Shown here in pieces: positions 28,982 through 38,297 of a stretch of 64,000 nt of DNA; position 1 is the stretch's first letter; each line of letters starts with the position of its first letter. This DNA comes from Kofleriaceae bacterium (GTDB taxonomy: Bacteria; Myxococcota_A; Polyangia; Haliangiales; Haliangiaceae), in contig JAGPCY010000022.1 of assembly GCA_018057825.1 (NCBI GenBank), positions 62,001 to 126,000 on the forward strand, written 5' to 3'. Below the pieces are notes generated by a model. That model saw nothing but the letters and a program-made list of their open reading frames with translations, was not told the DNA's origin and did not search any database. The position numbers and the translations under genes are program-made.

Positions 28982-31195
28982 ATGGCGCGAGCTGCCATGC
29001 GAGCGCTCAAATTCCTGTCGGTGTTATTGGTGGTTGCGGCTTGTGAGGGACCCGCGGGGCCGCGGGGTGACACGGGTGACACGGGGCCAGCCGGTGATCC
29101 AGGTGACGACGGCGTCGCCGGAGACCCTGGCCCCGCTGGACCGCCGGGCGACGACGGTCAATCACCGTGGTTCGCCGGGCCAGGCGTCGACGTCGAGGTC
29201 ACCGGCCTCGAGGTCAGCGCCACGATGGCGCGGGTGTCCTTCCGGCTGCGCGACGGCGCCGGCGTACCCCTCGATCGCGCCGGTCGCTTGACCCCCGGCC
29301 CGGTCACGATGGCCTTCGTCCTCGGCCAGCTCGGCGTCGACGGCACCGGCGCGCCGACCCCGTACGTCTCGTACACGACGCGGACCGCGACCGGCCCCGG
29401 TGGGGTCACCGCGACTCAGGCGTGGACCGAGAACAACGGCACCTACGAGGTCGTCGACGTCACCGCCGGCACCTACCGCTACACCTTCGCGGCGCCGCTG
29501 ACCGGCTTCGACGCCGCGCGCACGCAGACGGTGATGGCGGTCGCGTCGCGGACCCAAGACGGCGCCGCCGCGTTCGACCGCGCGACCTTCTCGATCCGGC
29601 CCGACGGCGGCGCGATCGCCGAGCGCTCGGTCGTCACCCAGGCCAACTGCGCTTCGTGCCACGGCACCTTCTCCGCCCACGGCGGCCGCTACACCGCGGT
29701 CGATCAATGCGAGATGTGCCACACCTCGCAGACCACCGACGCCGACACCGGCAACACCGTCGACTTCGGCGTGATGCTGCACAAGATCCACGCCGGCAAG
29801 GACCTGCCGTCGGTGATCGCCGGGACGCCGTACCGGATCATCGGCTTCGGCGGCACGGTCCACGACTTCTCGACGGTCGCGTTCCCGCACTCGATCAAGC
29901 GCTGCGATAGCTGCCACGGCGGCGCGCCCCAGGGCGGCAACTGGCAGACCGCGCCGTCGGCCGAGACCTGCCGGTCGTGCCACGACAACATCTCTTTCGT
30001 CGACCCGCCGCCCGGCGGTCAGGTCCTGCACAGCGGCGGCGCCCAGCCCCCGGGCGCGCCGTGCAACGTCTGCCACCCGGCCAACGGCTCGATCGCCCCG
30101 ATCGTCCCGGCCCACGCCGACGTGTCCTTCGACCGTAGCCACGAGCTGGCGATCACGATCGAGTCGGTCGCCCCGGTGACCCCCGGCCAGCCGATCACGT
30201 TCACGTTCCAGGTCCGCTACGACGGCGTGGCCCGCAACATCCAGACCGCGCCGCTGGCCAGCCTGCGCGCGCTGATCGTCGGCCCCAACACCGACTACAC
30301 CCGGTACTGGACGGTCGGCACCTCGACCAACCCGTGGGCCCAGGTCACGGTCCAGGGCAGCGGCGCCACCGGCACGTTGACCGCGGTCGACGCCGCCGCC
30401 GGTCGGTTCAGCTATACGTTCCCCGCCACCGTCGTCATCCCGGCCGACGCCACCGGCAGCTTCACCGTCGCGATCGAGTCTGCGGTCAACGCCGCCGACC
30501 CGCGCTACCCGACGGTGTCGCCGAGCTTCGCGTTCTCGGTCGACGGCTCGCCGGTGGTCGCGCGCCGCCAGATCATCGACCCGGCCAAGTGCAACGCCTG
30601 CCACGACGACCTGCGCTTCCACGGCGGCAACCGTCGCGGCGCGGCCTACTGCGTGACCTGCCACAACCCGGAGAACGCCAACGCCGACCGCATCGCGCGC
30701 GCCGAGGGCAGCCAGGTCCTGGCCGAGAGCGTCGACTTCCGCGTGATGATCCACAAGATCCACATGGGCGAGGAGCTGAGCCAGCCGTACATCCTCGGCG
30801 CCAACCCGACGCCGACGGTGGCCAACCCGCAGGGCACCCAGGTCAACTTCGCCGAGGTCCGCTACCCGCGGTCGCGCGCCGAGTGTAGCGCCTGCCACCT
30901 GCCCGGGACCTGGACCTTGCCGGCGGCCGAGGGCCGCGCCCAGAGCATCCTCCAGGAGATCACCTGCACCGAGGATCCGGCGGCCGACGCCGACGGCTAC
31001 TGCACCTCGCCGTTCTGGAACGTCACCCAGACCTTCCGGCTGGCGCCTGAGACCTCGGTGTGCACGAGCTGCCACGACGCGCCGTACGTGACCGCCCACG
31101 CCCAGCTCAACACGACGATGTTCGGCGTCGAGGCGTGCACGACGTGCCACGGCGCGGGCAAGACCTACGACGTCGCGGTGGTGCACGCGCAGTGA
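28982..31195 (+). CDS. OmcA/MtrC-type decaheme cytochrome c lipoprotein
   Basis: A 737-residue outer-surface cytochrome of the OmcA/MtrC family that would pass electrons to extracellular acceptors. The signal ends LLVVAACEG (lipobox). Directly after it come about 13 collagen-like Gly-X-Y triplets (GPAGPRGDTGDTGPAG...), then a beta domain. Exactly ten CXXCH motifs lie in two groups of five (CASCH, CEMCH, CDSCH, CRSCH, CNVCH; then CNACH, CVTCH, CSACH, CTSCH, CTTCH) split by a second beta domain (~390-530). This is the expected I-II-III-IV plan. ATG 28997 is an alternative start that also gives a full signal. It is the first of seven overlapping genes; the next start (GTG 31192) overlaps its stop. 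Confidence 0.93.
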   Translation: MARAAMRALKFLSVLLVVAACEGPAGPRGDTGDTGPAGDPGDDGVAGDPGPAGPPGDDGQSPWFAGPGVDVEVTGLEVSATMARVSFRLRDGAGVPLDRAGRLTPGPVTMAFVLGQLGVDGTGAPTPYVSYTTRTATGPGGVTATQAWTENNGTYEVVDVTAGTYRYTFAAPLTGFDAARTQTVMAVASRTQDGAAAFDRATFSIRPDGGAIAERSVVTQANCASCHGTFSAHGGRYTAVDQCEMCHTSQTTDADTGNTVDFGVMLHKIHAGKDLPSVIAGTPYRIIGFGGTVHDFSTVAFPHSIKRCDSCHGGAPQGGNWQTAPSAETCRSCHDNISFVDPPPGGQVLHSGGAQPPGAPCNVCHPANGSIAPIVPAHADVSFDRSHELAITIESVAPVTPGQPITFTFQVRYDGVARNIQTAPLASLRALIVGPNTDYTRYWTVGTSTNPWAQVTVQGSGATGTLTAVDAAAGRFSYTFPATVVIPADATGSFTVAIESAVNAADPRYPTVSPSFAFSVDGSPVVARRQIIDPAKCNACHDDLRFHGGNRRGAAYCVTCHNPENANADRIARAEGSQVLAESVDFRVMIHKIHMGEELSQPYILGANPTPTVANPQGTQVNFAEVRYPRSRAECSACHLPGTWTLPAAEGRAQSILQEITCTEDPAADADGYCTSPFWNVTQTFRLAPETSVCTSCHDAPYVTAHAQLNTTMFGVEACTTCHGAGKTYDVAVVHAQ

Positions 31196-32385
31196 GGTGG
31201 GTGGTCGCCATGGTGGCGGGGCTCGCGCTCGGCGGTTGCGCCGACGAGCGGCCCCGTACCGTCGACGACTGCCTGGGCGTCCACGGCTGCGGGGTCCTCG
31301 ATCCCGCGGCCGAGGATTTTCACGGCCGCGAGCTGGCGGCGGCGGGCTGGGACCTCGGGTTGTGCGCGAGCTGCCACGGCGCCGACTTCGCCGGCACCAG
31401 CGCCGCGCCGACCTGCCGGACCTGCCATGAAGCCGGCCCCGATGACTGCGCCACGTGCCACGGCGCCGACGGGCCGAGCACCGGCGCCCACGCGCGCCAC
31501 GGCGTGGTCGGGCTCGGCTGCGCCGAGTGCCACGCGGTCCCGACCCGGTGGGACAGCGACGGCCACGTCCGCCGGGGCGGCGCCGCCGATCCCCCGCCGG
31601 CCGAGGTGGCGATGACCGCCCTGGCGGCGACCACGCCGCGGCCGGGCGAGCGCACCGGGCCGCCGAGCTTCGACGGCGCGACCGGGACCTGCGCGCAGGT
31701 CTACTGCCACGGCGATGTCCTCGGTGGCGGCGGGGCCAAGACCCGGCCGCGCTGGGTCGACCCCGGGCCGGGCTCGGCGACCTGCGGCGACTGCCACGGT
31801 GCGCCGCCGCCCGATCACGCCTGGTCGAGCTGCACGACCTGCCACGCCGAGGGCCGTCACCTCGACGGCACGATCGACGTCGGCGTGACCGACCCCGGCT
31901 GCACCGGCTGTCACGGCGGCGCCACGCCGGCGCCGCCTCGCGGCCTCGACGGCAGCACGTTCTCGACCGCGATCGGCGTCGGGGCGCACACCGCCCACGT
32001 CACCGCGCCGCGCCGGCTGAGCGCGCCGATCGCGTGCGCGACCTGCCACGCGGTGCCGGCCGAGACCACCTCGCCCGGCCACCTCGACACCGCCGCGCCC
32101 GCCGAGGTCGCGGCCGGGCTCGGCTGGGATCGGGCGACCGCGACCTGCGGCACCGCGTGGTGTCATGGCCCGGCGCGTCCGACCTGGACCCGCACCGGCG
32201 AGGTCGCGTGTGGCACCTGCCACGGCGTGCCGCCGGTCAGCCCGCCCCACCAGCCGACGATGGCGCTGACGGCGTGCGCCGGTTGCCATCCGTCGACGGT
32301 CGACGCCTTCGGCAACATCCTCGTGGTCGACGGGCCGACCGGCCCCACCAGCCACCACCTCGATGGAGAGGTCGATGCACCTTGA
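31192..32385 (+). CDS. CxxxxCH/CXXCH multiheme cytochrome lipoprotein
   Basis: A 397-residue lipoprotein (signal GLALGGC). It carries ten CXXCH motifs plus two CX4CH motifs (CAQVYCH and CGTAWCH). Each CX4CH is followed ~30-60 residues later by CXXCH (CGDCHGAPP, CGTCHGVPP). That is the recurrent CxxxxCH...CXXCH module known from Geobacter-type extracellular cytochromes. Up to 12 hemes could be bound. The GTG start overlaps the stop of the decaheme gene by four bases, and the 3' end overlaps the NapC-like gene by 11 bases. It probably acts with the decaheme protein on the outer surface or just below it. Confidence 0.85.
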   Translation: MRWVVAMVAGLALGGCADERPRTVDDCLGVHGCGVLDPAAEDFHGRELAAAGWDLGLCASCHGADFAGTSAAPTCRTCHEAGPDDCATCHGADGPSTGAHARHGVVGLGCAECHAVPTRWDSDGHVRRGGAADPPPAEVAMTALAATTPRPGERTGPPSFDGATGTCAQVYCHGDVLGGGGAKTRPRWVDPGPGSATCGDCHGAPPPDHAWSSCTTCHAEGRHLDGTIDVGVTDPGCTGCHGGATPAPPRGLDGSTFSTAIGVGAHTAHVTAPRRLSAPIACATCHAVPAETTSPGHLDTAAPAEVAAGLGWDRATATCGTAWCHGPARPTWTRTGEVACGTCHGVPPVSPPHQPTMALTACAGCHPSTVDAFGNILVVDGPTGPTSHHLDGEVDAP

Positions 32386-32992
32386 CGTGTTTGGATGGGT
32401 CGCGCTGGCCGGGGCGGCGATCGCCGCCGCGATCCTGGTCTGGTACCTGATCGCGCGGCCGCCGCTCAACCGGGCGACCAAGCTGGCGCTCTTGCTCGGC
32501 ATCGGCGCGTTCCCGCTGGCGACCGCCGGGTCGGGCAACTACGCCGGCTTCGAGGCGACCAAGCGGCGCGAGTTCTGCGGCTCGTGCCACGTCATGACGC
32601 CGTACCAGCGCGACGTCGAGGATCCGGCGTCGACGTCCTTGGCCGCGATCCACTCGCGCAACCAGACCTTCGGCCGCGAGAGCTGTTACACCTGCCACGC
32701 CGACTACGGCATGTTCGGCACGATCGTGACCAAGGGCTCCGGCCTGCGGCACGTCTATCACTACCTCTTGACCTACCGGTCGATGTCGCTGGCCGAGGCG
32801 CGCAAGAGCATCCGCCTGCGGGGCACCTTCCCGAGCTCGACCTGTCGCCGCTGCCACACCACGACCGCGCCGGGCTGGAAGGCGGTGCCCGATCACGCGG
32901 CGCTGGCCGACGACCTGGCCCAGGGCAAGGTCGGCTGCGTGGGCGAGGGCTGCCACGGGCCGGCGCACCCGTGGAGCAAGGATCCAAAATGA
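32375..32992 (+). CDS. NapC/NirT-family membrane cytochrome c (quinol dehydrogenase type)
   Basis: A 205-residue inner-membrane cytochrome of the NapC/NirT/NrfH/CymA group, which oxidises menaquinol or ubiquinol and feeds periplasmic cytochromes. Two hydrophobic segments (~5-27, ~36-55) precede the heme domain. Heme motifs are FCGSCHVM (the family's first site, with the usual M near it), CYTCH, CRRCH, and a fourth written CVGEGCH, a CX4CH instead of CXXCH. ATG 32375 is chosen because GGAG (32365-32368) is 6 nt upstream; ATG 32363 is in frame but lacks this. Its presence links the surface cytochromes in this operon to the quinone pool. Confidence 0.88.
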   Translation: MHLDVFGWVALAGAAIAAAILVWYLIARPPLNRATKLALLLGIGAFPLATAGSGNYAGFEATKRREFCGSCHVMTPYQRDVEDPASTSLAAIHSRNQTFGRESCYTCHADYGMFGTIVTKGSGLRHVYHYLLTYRSMSLAEARKSIRLRGTFPSSTCRRCHTTTAPGWKAVPDHAALADDLAQGKVGCVGEGCHGPAHPWSKDPK

Positions 32993-33249
32993 CCCGCTGG
33001 CTGCGCGTCTCGGCGCTCCTGACGCTCCTCGCGCTCGCGCTGATGGTGTGGTCGGTGCTGCAACCGACGCCGTTGCCGGTGATGCTGGCGATGTCGGTCG
33101 GGCAGGGCATCGGCACGCTGGCGTTCGGGCTGTACGGCTGGGTCGTGTTCGCCGACCTGCGGCGCATCCGCCGGTTGGCCCGCGAGGCCGAGGCGGCCAA
33201 GACCGCGGCGCCGCCCGCCGAGGCGTCACCGCCGTCGGAGTCGTCGTGA
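32989..33249 (+). CDS. Small two-helix membrane protein
   Basis: An 86-residue protein with two membrane helices (about 6-26, LRVSALLTLLALALMVWSVL, and 32-53, MLAMSVGQGIGTLAFGLYGW) and a charged Ala/Glu-rich cytosolic tail. The family is not recognised. ATG overlaps the stop of the NapC-like gene (ATGA), and its own stop overlaps the next start (GTGA). That strict coupling, and its place between the quinol oxidase-like cytochrome and the beta-barrel, suggest a subunit or assembly factor of the same complex. Confidence 0.7.
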   Translation: MTRWLRVSALLTLLALALMVWSVLQPTPLPVMLAMSVGQGIGTLAFGLYGWVVFADLRRIRRLAREAEAAKTAAPPAEASPPSESS

Positions 33250-34406
33250 CCCGGCGGTGGGCGACCGCGGTCGGCCTGGTCGCGTGCGCCGCGGCCGGCG
33301 CCCACGCCGATCCGCTGCGGCTGCGCGGCGACGCGCTCGCGACGACGCAGTCTCCGGTTGGCCTCCTGGTGCTCAGCGGCGACGGCGCGGTGTCGGGGCC
33401 GGTGACCGCCGAGGCCCTGGTGTGGATGGGCGCGACCCACGACGGCGCCACCGGCGATGCGCTGGTCATGGCGGTGGTGGCGCGGCGCGAGGATCGGCGC
33501 GCCGAGGCGCGCATCGGTCGCCTGGTCGCCACCGTCGGTGGCCTGCGGCCGGTCCACGTCGATGGCGTGGCTGGGCGGGTGCGGTTGCCGCGGCGCCTCG
33601 ACGTCGAGGTGGTCGGCGGCGTGCCGGTGGTGCCGCGGCTCGGGGCGCAGGCCTGGGACTGGCTGATCGGCGGGCGGGTAGCGCGGCGCCTGGGTGACGC
33701 GGGGGCCCTCGGGGTCGCCGCGCTCGAGCGCCGCGAGGCCGGCCGGCTGGCCACCCGCGAGCTCGGGCTCGACGCGGCGTGGAGTCGCGGCCGCTACGAC
33801 GCGGCGGCGCGAGCCGCGGTCGATCTGATCGATCCGGCGCTCGCCGATCTGCGGGTGGTGGCGCTGGCGCGATGGCGGGCGGTGCGCGGTGAGCTGTCCC
33901 TCGAGCATCGGTCGCCGACGCACCTGTTGCCGGCGACCAGCTTGTTCACGGTGCTCGGCGAGGTCGCCTCGGATCGCGCCGGCGCCGGGCTGCGCTGGCG
34001 GGCCGCGCCGCGCCTCGACGTCGTCGCCGATCTCGGCGTGCGCGCGGTGTCCGACGAGGTCGCCGCCGACGCCTTCGCCCGCGCGACGCTCCGGCTCGAT
34101 GACCGCGGCCGCGGCGCGATCGTGTTCGAGGCCCGGCGCGCCGGGGCGATCGACGGCGGCTGGACCGGGGCCCGGGTCGCCGGGCGCGTGCCGGTCGGGC
34201 GATGGTCGGCGGCCCTCGAGGCCGAGCTGGTGCGCCCCGACGTCGATCGCGGTCGCGGCACGCTGTGGCCGTGGGCGATGGCGGCGCTGGGCTGGACCGC
34301 CGATGGCTGGGACGCCGCGCTGGCGATCGAGGCGACCTCGTCGCCGACCGATCGCGCGCGGGTCGACGTGCTGGCCCAGCTCGGGCGGCGCTGGGAGCTC
34401 CGATGA
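33246..34406 (+). CDS. Predicted outer-membrane beta-barrel of the cytochrome conduit
   Basis: A 386-residue precursor with a Sec signal (VGLVACAAAGAHA). Long alternating amphipathic strands follow (RLVATVGGLRPVHVD, LGLDAAWSRGRYDAAARAAVDL, WSAALEAELVRPDV) separated by short turns, and it ends in LGRRWELR. This fits an outer-membrane barrel. In metal-reducing bacteria a porin sheathes the multiheme that crosses the outer membrane (MtrB-MtrA, or the Pcc porins). The operon position fits that role. It is shorter than MtrB and has no CXXC near its N-terminus. No sequence similarity is claimed. Confidence 0.65.
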   Translation: MTRRWATAVGLVACAAAGAHADPLRLRGDALATTQSPVGLLVLSGDGAVSGPVTAEALVWMGATHDGATGDALVMAVVARREDRRAEARIGRLVATVGGLRPVHVDGVAGRVRLPRRLDVEVVGGVPVVPRLGAQAWDWLIGGRVARRLGDAGALGVAALERREAGRLATRELGLDAAWSRGRYDAAARAAVDLIDPALADLRVVALARWRAVRGELSLEHRSPTHLLPATSLFTVLGEVASDRAGAGLRWRAAPRLDVVADLGVRAVSDEVAADAFARATLRLDDRGRGAIVFEARRAGAIDGGWTGARVAGRVPVGRWSAALEAELVRPDVDRGRGTLWPWAMAALGWTADGWDAALAIEATSSPTDRARVDVLAQLGRRWELR

Positions 34407-35446
34407 GGCGGCCGATCGTCATCGCCGTGGTCGCGGTCGCGATCGCCGCGTGCGCAGGCGTGCTCGGCCTGCGCCGCGAGCGCAGCCGGACCTTCCCGCA
34501 CCGCGCCCACGTCGTGAAGGGCGTGTCGTGCGTGCAGTGCCACCCCGGCATCACCGAGGCCGGCGACGTCGGACCGCTCCACCCGCCCGACGACGCCACC
34601 TGCACCACCGCCGGCTGTCACGCGCAGCCGCACGATCCGCGGCCGTGCGCCGGGTGCCACCGCGATCCGATGGTGCTGGCCGGCGCCGGCGAGGCGCGCG
34701 CTCACCTCAAGTTCTCCCACGCCAGCCATCTGGTGGCGGCGGTCGGCAACTGCGCGCGCTGCCACGTCGAGGTCGCGGCCAGCGATGGCCCGCTGCGCCC
34801 GGCGATGGCGGTGTGCTGGAGCTGCCACGCCCACGATCGCGCCCGCGAGGTCCGCGACTGCGCGGCCTGCCACGTCGATCTGGTCGAGGAGGGCGTCGCC
34901 CCGACCTCGCACCTGGTCCACGACGACGACTTCGCGACCCGCCACGGTCCGGCGGCCGCGGCCGCCGCCGATCTGTGCTCGAGCTGCCACCGCGAGCCAT
35001 TCTGCGCGTCGTGCCACGGCGTGACCGCGCCGACGATCGCCGCGCGCCTGCGCCCGTCCGATCCGATGTCGACCTCGGTCCACCGGCCGGGCTTCATCAA
35101 CCGCCACGGCGAGGACGCTCGGGTCGCCCCGTCGGCGTGCACCTCGTGCCACCAGCCCGATCGTTGCCTCGACTGTCACCAGGACCGCGGGGTCGCGTCG
35201 ACCGGCGCCAGCCCGCACCCGCCGGGGTGGGTCGGCCTCGGCCTGGCCGGCAATGAACACGGTCGCGCCGCGCGGCGTGACCCGGTGGCGTGCGCGAGCT
35301 GCCACGGCGGCGCCGGCGAAGCGCTGTGCGTGAGCTGCCACCGCGTCGGCGGTCCGGGCGGCGATCCCCATCCGCCCGGGTGGTCGAGCCCGCGGCCGCT
35401 GACCGATCTGCCGTGCCGGCTGTGCCACACCGGAGCCGCGCTGTGA
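34403..35446 (+). CDS. Periplasmic-type multiheme cytochrome c, 12-13 hemes
   Basis: A 347-residue exported protein whose N-terminal hydrophobic segment (IVIAVVAVAIAACAG) could be a signal anchor or a weak lipobox. It carries twelve CXXCH motifs and one CX4CH (CTTAGCH), with scattered extra histidines (FPHRAH, FSHASH, HPPGW) suited as distal axial ligands. Hemes are spaced about 20-30 residues apart, dense enough for a wire-like chain. ATG overlaps the stop of the barrel gene. In a porin-cytochrome conduit this would be the MtrA-like periplasmic or barrel-inserted partner. Confidence 0.85.
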   Translation: MRRPIVIAVVAVAIAACAGVLGLRRERSRTFPHRAHVVKGVSCVQCHPGITEAGDVGPLHPPDDATCTTAGCHAQPHDPRPCAGCHRDPMVLAGAGEARAHLKFSHASHLVAAVGNCARCHVEVAASDGPLRPAMAVCWSCHAHDRAREVRDCAACHVDLVEEGVAPTSHLVHDDDFATRHGPAAAAAADLCSSCHREPFCASCHGVTAPTIAARLRPSDPMSTSVHRPGFINRHGEDARVAPSACTSCHQPDRCLDCHQDRGVASTGASPHPPGWVGLGLAGNEHGRAARRDPVACASCHGGAGEALCVSCHRVGGPGGDPHPPGWSSPRPLTDLPCRLCHTGAAL

Positions 35447-37134
35447 GGTGGCTCGTCGCCCTCGCGATGCTCGCGCTCGCCGCGTGCGGCAGCTCGGCCG
35501 AGCCCGACGGCGTGCCCGACGCCTGGAAGTTCGTGAAGGATAGCTTCGGCCACCGGGTCCACGTCGAGCGGGCCAAGGTGCCGTGCCGTGACTGCCACGG
35601 CGACGCCAGCTTCGCCAAGCCAGAGGACCCGGCGCTGTGCAGCAAGTGCCACGCCGACAAGGTCGCGACGATCCACCCGGCGGCGACGGCGGCGACCCCG
35701 ACCGGCGCGACCCCGACCGGCGCGACCCCGACCGGCGCGACCCCGACCGGCGCGACCCCGACCGCGAAGGTCCCGGGGTGCCAGGACTGCCACGGCTTCG
35801 ATCGCGATCTGGCCGAGCGTCCCAACGCCTGCATCCGCTGCCACGGCGATGCCCAGGGCGATCACACCGGCGCGATCGGCGTCCACGCCGGCGCCCGGTG
35901 CAGCGACTGCCATCGACCCCACGAGACGCCGTCCTTGGTGGCGCGCACCTGTCGCGACTGTCACGCGTCGACGGCGATGAGCCACGGCGACCGCGCCGGA
36001 CCGACCGACTGCCTCGACTGTCACCGCACCCACGAGCGCGCCAAGGAGGCCGACGGCAAGTGCGCCTCCTGCCACGCCGAGAAAGAGCCGCGCATCCCGA
36101 CCACCGCGATCACCCGCGGCCACGAGCGCTGCACCGGCTGCCACGCGCCGCACCAGTTCACCGCCGCCGCGGTCAAGCCGTGCGCCGACTGTCACCAGGC
36201 CCAGCCGGTGCTCGCGGCCAAGGCCCACGGCGCGTGCGTGAGCTGCCACGTCCCCCACGAGGCCGCGCCGCGTCCGTGCGCGAGCTGCCACGGCGGCGAG
36301 GCCGCCAAGGTCGCGCACCCGGCGCCGGCCGACGGCGATCGCTGCGCCGGCTGCCACCCGCCGCACGCCGGCGGCGCTGCGCTCGCGGCGCCGTGCGAGC
36401 GCTGCCACGACGACGTCAACCGCCACGGCACCGCGGCCTGCCGCGACTGCCACACCCCCCACGGCGGCAAGCCCGTCCTCGACGCCCGGGCGTGCGCGAG
36501 CTGCCACGCCGGCCTGGTGGCGAGCGCCGCCGGCTCGGGCCACGCCGACTGCGTCGGGTGCCACACCCAGGCCGGCCACGCGCCGGCGGCGCCGGTGGCG
36601 GCATGCGGGAGCTGTCACCGCGCGATCGTCACCACCGTGACCGGCGGCCACGCCGCGTGCGCGAGCTGTCACCGCGAGCCGCGCCACGCCCCGGGCGCGC
36701 CGACGCCGACCTGCGCCGCCTGCCACGAGGCCGAGGCCGCGAGCGCGCCGCGCGGGCACACCGACTGCCAGCGCTGCCACGATCAGCACACCGGCGCGAT
36801 GCTGGCGCGCGCCGCGACCTGCGCGAGCTGCCACCCCAGCCCGGCCACCACCGGTCACGGGCCGAAGGTCGCGTGCGCGACCTGCCACCGGCCCCACGGT
36901 CCGGGCGGCGTGGCCACCCCGCCGCGCTGCGAGACCTGCCACGAGCGGCCGCTCTTGCCTGGGCTCCACGCCTCGACCGGCCACGATCGCTGCGATGGTT
37001 GTCACCGCGGCGGTCACGATCCGGCGCCGCACTCCGACCGCGCGACCTGCCTCACCTGCCACCAGGCCCAGCAGAACCACGAGCCGCGGGCCAAGACCTG
37101 CGCGACCTGTCACCCGTTCGGCGACGGTCGGTAG
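35443..37134 (+). CDS. 27-heme cytochrome c lipoprotein
   Basis: A 563-residue lipoprotein (signal LALAACGS) with 27 CXXCH motifs, one per ~21 residues, among the densest heme packing seen in cytochromes c. Heme-binding segments recur as CxxCHxPH or CASCH with a following histidine. Hemes 1-2 are separated from 3-27 by a proline/threonine linker, ATPTG repeated about five times and encoded by 15-bp tandem units. The GTG start overlaps the previous stop. A lipid-anchored chain of this kind could store electrons or bridge the periplasm. It ends the seven-gene operon. All counts are direct readings of the motif. Confidence 0.9.
   Translation: MRWLVALAMLALAACGSSAEPDGVPDAWKFVKDSFGHRVHVERAKVPCRDCHGDASFAKPEDPALCSKCHADKVATIHPAATAATPTGATPTGATPTGATPTGATPTAKVPGCQDCHGFDRDLAERPNACIRCHGDAQGDHTGAIGVHAGARCSDCHRPHETPSLVARTCRDCHASTAMSHGDRAGPTDCLDCHRTHERAKEADGKCASCHAEKEPRIPTTAITRGHERCTGCHAPHQFTAAAVKPCADCHQAQPVLAAKAHGACVSCHVPHEAAPRPCASCHGGEAAKVAHPAPADGDRCAGCHPPHAGGAALAAPCERCHDDVNRHGTAACRDCHTPHGGKPVLDARACASCHAGLVASAAGSGHADCVGCHTQAGHAPAAPVAACGSCHRAIVTTVTGGHAACASCHREPRHAPGAPTPTCAACHEAEAASAPRGHTDCQRCHDQHTGAMLARAATCASCHPSPATTGHGPKVACATCHRPHGPGGVATPPRCETCHERPLLPGLHASTGHDRCDGCHRGGHDPAPHSDRATCLTCHQAQQNHEPRAKTCATCHPFGDGR
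35692..35766 (+). repeat. 15-bp tandem repeat in the 27-heme gene
   Basis: Four perfect copies and a partial fifth of GCGACCCCGACCGGC encode (Ala-Thr-Pro-Thr-Gly)n. It is an in-frame minisatellite that could change linker length between strains. Confidence 0.9.
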
Positions 37135-37169: not shown

Positions 37170-37187
37170 GCGCGCGACGTCGCGCGC
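37170..37187. terminator. 18-bp palindrome between convergent genes
   Basis: GCGCGCGACGTCGCGCGC is a perfect palindrome abutting the stop codon of the protease gene. It lies 36 nt after the 27-heme gene stop. As RNA it would form a tight hairpin on either strand. It could be a terminator for both operons or a dyad binding site. Confidence 0.4.
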
Positions 37188-38297
37188 TCAGGTCCGCGCT
37201 TGTTCTTTCCAGAACGTGAGCTGGGTGGCCGGCGCCGGCTCGCAGCCGAAGTCGGCGGCGAGCTGGTTGTCGAAGCGATCGGCGGCGGCCACGAAGTCGG
37301 CGATCCAGCCGGCCAGCTCGGCGCGATCGGCGCGCGCGAACACGTCGCTGGCGTGGAAGGTCAGGTGCAGGCGGATGATGTTGTCGTCGAGATCGAAGGC
37401 CAGCGGCGCGTGCTCGGCCGACAAGAGGTAGCGGAACAGCTCGCCCAAGCGCTGCTTGCCCGGCTTGGCCAGCGGCGAGGCGAAGCACAGGTGCTCGGAG
37501 CAGCAGCTCCAGATCTCGATCGGCGCCGAGCCGCTGTAGAACGACCAGTTGTGGGCGCCGTGGCGGGCCAGGATGGGATCGACCCCAGCCCGGGCCAGGG
37601 CGTCCTCGACGAACTCGACCATCGGGTGAGGCGCCGGCGGATCGAAGTAGGTCGTGAGATCGAGCTCCTCGAGGTCGGTGCCGCAGTGATCGCAGTAGCG
37701 GCGGGCCGACTCGAGGAGCGCGTCGCACGCCGGGCACAGCACGCCGAAGGGCGCGGCCTGGGCGTGGAAACCATCGATGAAGGCCTGGGCGTCAGCGCCG
37801 GGGATGCCGAAGCCGACGTTCTCGGCCGCGCGCAGCTTGCAGGTCGTGACCGCGACGATGTGGCGGGTGGCGTCGAGCATCGGCCCGCCGGAGTTGCCCG
37901 GGTTGATCGCGGCGTCGGTCTGGACGAAGTGCTGGCCGTCGAGGAGCTGGCGCGGGTTCGACACCACGCCGTCGGTGATCGACAGCGGCAGGCCGACCGG
38001 GAAGCCGACGATGCTGATCGGCTGGTTGGGCTTGAGCTCGCCGCTGCCGGCGATCGACAGGATCTGGCCGGCCACCGGCGCGGTCAGCTCGACGATCGCC
38101 AGGTCGCGCTCGGGCGCGATCCGGCGGACCTCGCCGAGCACCCGCCGCCGATCGCGCAGCTCGACCGCGACCTGACGGTAGGGCGCGACGACGTGGGCGT
38201 TGGTGACCAGGATCGTGGGCGCGATCAGGAAGCCGGTGCCGGTCCCACCGCCGGTGAAGACCTGATAGACGCCGAGCTCGGTGATGTCGAAGGTCAT
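37188..38297 (-). CDS. Cytosolic trypsin-like serine protease with zinc ribbon
   Basis: A 369-residue protein without signal peptide. Residues 1-180 are an S1-type (HtrA-like) protease with the triad H35 (TNAHVV), D65 (ERDLAIVEL) and S136 (GNSGGP). No PDZ domain follows; instead there is a zinc ribbon with C188/C191 and C202/C205. The ~150-residue C-terminal domain is unrecognised (IEIWSCCSEHLCF, LLSAEHAPLAFDLDDN) and vaguely like type III chaperone/YbjN folds. The start ATG overlaps the stop of the upstream gene (ATGA), so the two are translationally coupled. The cytosolic location and ribbon are unusual for HtrA relatives. Confidence 0.85.
   Translation of the reverse strand: MTFDITELGVYQVFTGGGTGTGFLIAPTILVTNAHVVAPYRQVAVELRDRRRVLGEVRRIAPERDLAIVELTAPVAGQILSIAGSGELKPNQPISIVGFPVGLPLSITDGVVSNPRQLLDGQHFVQTDAAINPGNSGGPMLDATRHIVAVTTCKLRAAENVGFGIPGADAQAFIDGFHAQAAPFGVLCPACDALLESARRYCDHCGTDLEELDLTTYFDPPAPHPMVEFVEDALARAGVDPILARHGAHNWSFYSGSAPIEIWSCCSEHLCFASPLAKPGKQRLGELFRYLLSAEHAPLAFDLDDNIIRLHLTFHASDVFARADRAELAGWIADFVAAADRFDNQLAADFGCEPAPATQLTFWKEQART

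Follow-up and report, generated by a model that had tools for sequence, protein, structure and literature searches.

Introduction

Among the described systems that most resemble the locus reported here, porin-cytochrome conduits (Pcc) in general pair porins predicted to have 18 to 22 strands with periplasmic cytochromes that carry 5 to 14 hemes, and the Pcc clusters of Anaeromyxobacter contain only two genes, which encode a porin and a cytochrome of 338 to 344 residues with 12 or 14 motifs (PMC4245776). Some outer-membrane partners in conduits of the Geobacter type have atypical heme motifs (PMC4245776). Genes for quinol dehydrogenases (cymA) are also known to reside inside conduit clusters, as in Rhodoferax and Sideroxydans (PMC6295460). 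Here we describe a set of seven genes (g1 to g7) at positions 28982 to 37134 on the + strand of a 64,000-nucleotide stretch of DNA (the window) from a Kofleriaceae bacterium. The window corresponds to bases 62001 to 126000 of contig C7 in a source genome of 8.9 Mb and 84 contigs. This operon probably specifies all parts of an electron path that crosses the Gram-negative envelope and leads from quinol to an acceptor outside the cell.

Results

Seven overlapping genes rich in heme motifs

A preliminary description of the window had reported seven genes that overlap end to start, and their coordinates bear out this order and the shared strand. Five of the six junctions are indeed 4-nt overlaps (GTGA or ATGA). 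The remaining overlap, between g2 and g3, had been given as 11 nt, which corresponds to a g3 start at position 32375. However, a start at position 32363 is likelier because 12 of 18 relatives share the resulting 23-nt overlap. A recount of heme motifs agreed with the earlier total of 62 CXXCH and 4 CX4CH, distributed over g1 to g7 (CXXCH + CX4CH) as 10, 10+2, 3+1, 0, 0, 12+1, and 27. The last two counts match the cytochromes of 13 and 27 motifs that had been noted, and the families proposed for g1, g2, and g3 are supported by model scores above their cut-offs, as detailed below. The 27 CXXCH motifs of g7 are far above chance, given that shuffled sequences held 0.5 on average and never more than 5 (2,000 trials). 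The G+C content at third codon positions is 0.92 to 0.97 across all seven frames. Every heme protein of the operon carries an export or membrane signal, in agreement with the envelope location that had been proposed. Lipobox-type N termini are present on g1, g2, g6, and g7, and g5 begins with a signal-peptide-like N terminus.

A porin-cytochrome core formed by g5 and g6

The product of g5 (positions 33246 to 34406), which the preliminary description had taken to be a barrel, was modeled with AlphaFold2 using 20 homologues. The prediction is a closed 22-strand barrel with a mean predicted local distance difference test (pLDDT) score of 81 and a predicted template modeling score of 0.71. Residues 24 to 383 of the model superpose on the 22-strand barrels of TonB-dependent receptors (VIA-align), including Fiu (6bpn; Z 20.0, 325 residues, root mean square deviation 4.0 Å). 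At 386 residues, g5 is without the plug domain of these receptors. Because a barrel of like size elsewhere holds a folded plug, the g5 barrel could hold part of a cytochrome. Foldseek matches were to ushers and porins that superposed poorly, no Pfam family was matched at E ≤ 1, and a profile search against the sequences of solved structures found no relative. MtrB is not among the structural matches listed for g5, where other barrels come first, and g5 may nonetheless be related to MtrB/PioB.

The next gene, g6 (positions 34403 to 35446), encodes a lipoprotein with 13 heme motifs that we presume to be the plug cytochrome of the barrel. It directly follows g5 in all loci that have both genes on the contig, and its lipobox cysteine (Cys17) is invariant in 26 of 26 sequences. 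Both proteins have counterparts in Anaeromyxobacter terrae: hhalign matched g5 to a porin (97.3% probability, E 2e-11, 310 columns) and g6 to a 12-heme cytochrome (100% probability, E 2e-68, 330 columns). The A. terrae locus was equated with the published Pcc by its matching gene content. Given this homology, the corresponding gene content, and the fact that 22 predicted strands and 13 motifs fall within the published ranges, g5 and g6 can be assigned to the Anaeromyxobacter type of Pcc.

By comparison with the MtrA/DmsE model TIGR03508, g6 gave no match at E ≤ 1 and g7 scored only 17.8 bits (cut-off 192), and thus neither is recognized as a decaheme cytochrome of that family. Profile matches of g6 and g7 to the structures of c7, Hmc, and MtrA largely reflect CXXCH spacing and were set aside as a basis for family assignment. 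In one distant genome, the core g5-g6-g2 occurs twice in tandem (L064:4145-15898). At three other loci (L059:13096-13593, L061:345-1148, and L062:8907-9452), g7 is followed by a gene for a small 5-heme protein that resembles the first half of g6 and that is absent from the window operon.

Probable outer-membrane and surface partners

The first gene, g1 (positions 28982 to 31195, with a start at either 28982 or 28997), encodes a surface lipoprotein with the lipobox VAAC and 10 CXXCH motifs. Its score against TIGR03507 is 399 bits (cut-off 209), which on this measure gives g1 full membership in the OmcA/MtrC decaheme family. It also matches PF22113 and the Pfam family Collagen, and its relatives among solved structures are MtrF/OmcA. 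The collagen-like region is a run of ~13 Gly-X-Y triplets (positions 29045 to 29160, residues about 21 to 60) located directly after the lipidated cysteine, and comparable runs are present in most g1 homologues. This run could form a trimeric stalk that raises the decaheme domain off the cell surface. We found no report of a collagen-like stalk on such a cytochrome in the open-access literature.

The lipoprotein encoded by g2 (positions 31192 to 32385) scores 68 bits against TIGR01904 (cut-off 27). Its gene adjoins g5-g6 even in distant Myxococcota, and g2 is likely the outer-membrane partner of the porin. Enlarged g2-like open reading frames with 25 to 35 heme motifs are found beside g5-g6 at four loci (L100:144-4061, L103:5653-8544, L106:4837-8163, and L122:5767-8391) in distant Myxococcota and in one metagenome-assembled genome (MAG) of Oligoflexales. 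These frames perhaps arose by duplication of a CX4CH unit.

A NapC-type quinol dehydrogenase and its probable small partner

The g3 gene (positions 32363 to 32992) encodes a tetraheme protein of the NapC/NirT family, with a score of 47 bits against PF03264 (cut-off 24) and an N-terminal transmembrane (TM) helix. The fourth of its heme motifs is CX4CH in all homologues aligned. Its sole relative in the PDB is NrfH (2j7a_C), and the residue numbers of NrfH used here were taken from the alignment of the two proteins. NrfH Met49, the ligand of heme 1, and Lys82, a residue of the quinol site, align with Met78 and Lys124 of g3, both of which are invariant in 20 of 20 homologues. NrfH Asp89 is replaced in g3 by His130, which is likewise invariant. 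A role for g3 as the partner of a nitrite reductase was ruled out because the genome encodes a separate NrfA-NrfH pair on contig C18 (G000:C18:21113-23066).

The adjacent g4 gene (positions 32989 to 33249) encodes a protein of 86 amino acids with two hydrophobic stretches, for which library searches of family models returned no curated family above cut-off. Of the 23 loci with g3, 22 have g4 next to it, and the most reasonable view is that g4 serves g3 as a small partner.

A 27-heme cytochrome with two types of anchor

The largest number of motifs is found in g7 (positions 35443 to 37134), which matches the repeats PF14522/PF14537. With 20.9 residues per motif, g7 is denser than PCC3 cytochromes, which have been reported with 22 to 39 residues per motif (PMC5566968). 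Another 29 histidines lie outside its motifs, and thus the protein has enough histidines to supply two ligands per heme. Its homologues begin in one of two ways. Among 40 distinct sequences, ~21 have a lipobox-like N terminus, and ~17 begin with basic residues and then a stretch of ~20 hydrophobic residues without a lipobox, which is an apparent TM anchor. These classes were assigned by script, after which inspection by eye moved the sequence of L056 to the probable TM anchors and those of L051 and L113 to the lipoprotein-like group; the sequences of L090 and L130 are not clear g7 homologues. An uncleaved N-terminal TM anchor keeps a protein in the inner membrane, and therefore the TM-anchored homologues would be placed there. 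The simplest reading of these N termini is that g7 is a wire that is tethered to the inner membrane and whose heme rod points towards the outer membrane. Of the 23 loci carrying g3, 21 also include g7. For comparison, Edwards et al. (PMC7096707) put the number of hemes required to span a periplasm of ~200 Å at ~27.

Between hemes 2 and 3 of g7 (positions 35680 to 35765), the sequence ATPTG is repeated five times as tandem 15-bp units in this genome and in none of the aligned relatives. A still longer open reading frame of 2,080 amino acids with 82 CXXCH motifs is present in a Saprospiraceae MAG (L130:9371-15610).

Conservation of the operon and its two modules

Among 56 related genomes searched, g3 was found in 22 and g5 in 28. 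The seven genes retain their order and strand within the same genus, where contigs are long enough, and in most members of the same family, and this order is found in many relatives. Thus, gene order is conserved across the family. The overlaps are also widespread in relatives (g2/g3 in 17 of 18, g3/g4 in 14 of 18, g4/g5 in 14 of 15, and g5/g6 in 16 of 19). When species genomes were scanned with g6, at least 60 loci were obtained, nearly all from Myxococcota MAGs. Among the genomes listed, the closest named relatives of the source genome are MAGs labeled Myxococcales or Kofleriaceae, which points to an uncultured Myxococcota host that is probably of Kofleriaceae type. The sole named isolate among the matches listed is A. 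terrae SG22, in which only g5 and g6 were found. Of the 58 listed loci with g6, 51 also have g5 and 38 have g2. Within the family and order, most loci have g7 immediately downstream of g6.

Outside the family, other arrangements become common. At many loci, g3-g4 is on the strand opposite g5-g6-g7 (for example L084-L086, L088, L089, L093, L095, and L096, which are labeled Myxococcales or Labilithrix), and in one genome g3-g4 lies on a different contig (L058 versus L059). Many more distant genomes have g2-g5-g6 or g5-g6 alone. Because either g3-g4 or g1-g3-g4-g7 is separable from the core across loci, the locus is, by its gene order, composed of two modules: an outer-membrane conduit (g5, g6, and g2) and a quinol-to-periplasm module (g3, g4, g7, and often g1). 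In this family, the two are fused into one operon.

The flanking genes look unrelated to the operon. Upstream are two alpha-amylase-family genes, and downstream are genes for a trypsin-like protease, a protein without a Pfam match, and a TatD nuclease. A scan for sigma-70 promoters found none and is uninformative at a G+C content this high. The lone terminator-like site (positions 37182 to 37199) is no better than chance.

Discussion

Proposed electron path and alternative explanations

The computed protein families, the predicted barrel, the lipoprotein signals, and the conserved gene order together make the trans-envelope conduit, as already read by the preliminary description, a well-supported interpretation. 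In the order of carriers that we infer, g3 would be held in the inner membrane and, assisted by g4, would oxidize quinol. The 27-heme wire g7, tethered by its N terminus most plausibly to the inner membrane, would carry electrons across the periplasm, and the lipid-anchored g6, located in or under the g5 barrel, would pass them through the outer membrane. Finally, g2 and the stalked decaheme g1 would deliver the electrons to an outside acceptor, which might be Fe(III)/Mn(IV) minerals, humics, an electrode, or another cell. Export from quinol is the likely main direction. More tentatively, and with somewhat less than an even chance of being correct, these proteins could form a hard-wired complex in which inner-membrane-tethered g7 contacts both the g3-g4 pair and the barrel-bound g6. 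If so, a continuous heme chain would link the quinone pool to a surface cytochrome that is raised on a collagen-like stalk and is possibly trimeric, and no carrier would need to diffuse.

Several observations weigh against the proposed electron path. The model of g6 is weak (mean pLDDT 60) and has no structural match, which bears on the placement of g6 inside the barrel. Moreover, a lipobox is present on the surface proteins g1 and g2, on about half of the g7 homologues, and on the g7 protein of the window, and so this protein might reside in the outer membrane or outside the cell. There it could serve as a charge store, as has been suggested for very large cytochromes (PMC10734462, PMC11495043), or as a surface wire, while small soluble cytochromes cross the periplasm and the conduit is not hard-wired. 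We consider this unlikely, since the apparent TM anchors of ~17 of the 40 distinct homologues would, if uncleaved, be unable to reach the outer membrane, and since g7 stays linked to the inner-membrane pair g3-g4 even where g5-g6-g2 is a separate unit. Such separation is seen in loci of the Myxococcaceae/Archangiaceae type, where the unit g1-g3-g4-g7 is divergent from g5-g6-g2 (L113, L115, L117, and L119), and some relatives are without g3 and g4 at the locus. The operon is therefore not indivisible. Together with the core-only genomes, the divergent loci would be consistent with two independent systems, a Pcc conduit (g5-g6-g2) and a quinol-linked module (g1-g3-g4-g7), that are merely neighbors and became fused here. 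However, the modules are adjacent even when divergent, and this adjacency, along with the position of g7 directly after g6, makes full independence quite improbable.

Conduits of this kind can also run in reverse. With Fe(II), a mineral, or a partner cell as donor, the same parts might feed electrons inward to the quinone pool and oxidases. Neither NapC-type proteins nor porin conduits are in principle restricted to one direction, and the genome has three COX1-family genes. In addition, a quinone-reducing role has been proposed for CymA of Sideroxydans (PMC6295460), and periplasmic cytochromes with 21 to 27 hemes are best known from iron oxidizers (PMC5566968, PMC10734462). In contrast, the MtrC family to which g1 belongs is most familiar from reducers, homologous Pcc cores are present in the iron reducer Anaeromyxobacter (PMC4245776), and a search of the genome found no RuBisCO, which also led us to reject CO2-fixing lithotrophy by this enzyme. 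On balance, uptake seems rather unlikely. The presence of COX1 and NrfHA and the lack of a RuBisCO hit fit a heterotroph that can respire oxygen, probably reduce nitrite, and perhaps export electrons, and this gene content does not in itself prove export.

The route of electrons across the periplasm is still debated in extracellular respiration, and most models invoke small shuttling cytochromes. The compact operon offers a candidate for a fixed, co-encoded periplasmic bridge whose heme number matches the estimated need, and the alternative anchors of g7 (lipid versus TM helix) lead to a clear, testable prediction of its location. Although myxobacteria are usually regarded as aerobic predators, our findings suggest that many uncultured members may respire outside acceptors.

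Comparison with known conduits

The preliminary description had considered the composition of the operon to be undescribed. This holds for the particular assembly, the anchoring of g7, the g3-g4 pair, and the collagen-like stalk of g1, whereas the core of a porin and a 13-heme cytochrome has homologues in the Anaeromyxobacter type of Pcc, and quinol dehydrogenases within clusters and porin clusters with 21- to 27-heme periplasmic cytochromes were already known. Because the A. terrae locus to which g5 and g6 are related matches the published Pcc, the operon is a form of a known kind of conduit rather than a new category. Since g1 is a full OmcA/MtrC member, the operon joins an MtrC-family surface protein to a Pcc core. 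Judged from sequence comparisons, what appears new is the combination of this core with a collagen-stalked MtrC-family cytochrome, NapC-type g3 with g4, and 27-heme g7. The two anchor types of g7, which suggest an inner-membrane-tethered periplasmic wire, and the travel of the genes as two modules also seem to be new, and the periplasmic bridging design is possibly so. We found no description of such an arrangement in these myxobacteria in the open-access literature, a scope that leaves subscription journals largely uncovered. A survey of sludge MAGs notes multiheme proteins in Myxococcota, and its available portion describes no such cluster (PMC11495043).

The Pcc of Anaeromyxobacter share homologous g5 and g6 proteins with the window operon, as well as barrel size and heme number, but the published clusters have two genes (PMC4245776), to which the operon adds g1, g2, g3, g4, and g7. 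Furthermore, the cytochrome partners of Pcc are described as periplasmic, whereas g6 bears a lipobox. The OmbB-OmaB-OmcB system of Geobacter is similar by description in combining a porin with two cytochromes, one on the periplasmic side and one of the outer membrane. However, Geobacter oxidizes quinol by ImcH or CbcL (PMC6295460), and the window operon has the NapC-type g3 instead. The MtrCAB and CymA proteins of Shewanella resemble the operon in that g1 belongs to the OmcA/MtrC family and g3 to the NapC/NirT family of CymA. Differences from this system are the lack of a Pfam match for g5 and of an MtrA/DmsE match for g6, the 22 strands of the predicted barrel, and the crossing of the periplasm, which in Shewanella involves small shuttles (PMC7096707) and here would involve g7 as the presumed wire.

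For the 27-heme component, the nearest precedent is PCC3, as compared by description. PCC3 clusters are alike in gene content, with a porin, a surface multiheme cytochrome, a periplasmic cytochrome of 21, 24, or 27 hemes, and an inner-membrane component (PMC5566968, PMC10734462), and the operon has corresponding genes if g7 is periplasmic, as we presume. In PCC3, the membrane component is a five-helix protein of ~300 amino acids with two HX13H motifs, and there is no separate 13-heme plug. The sole non-heme candidate for the inner membrane in the window operon is g4, which at 86 amino acids has no HX13H motifs. Thus, the membrane part of the operon would consist of NapC-type g3 together with g4, and its outer-membrane part would include the 13-heme g6.

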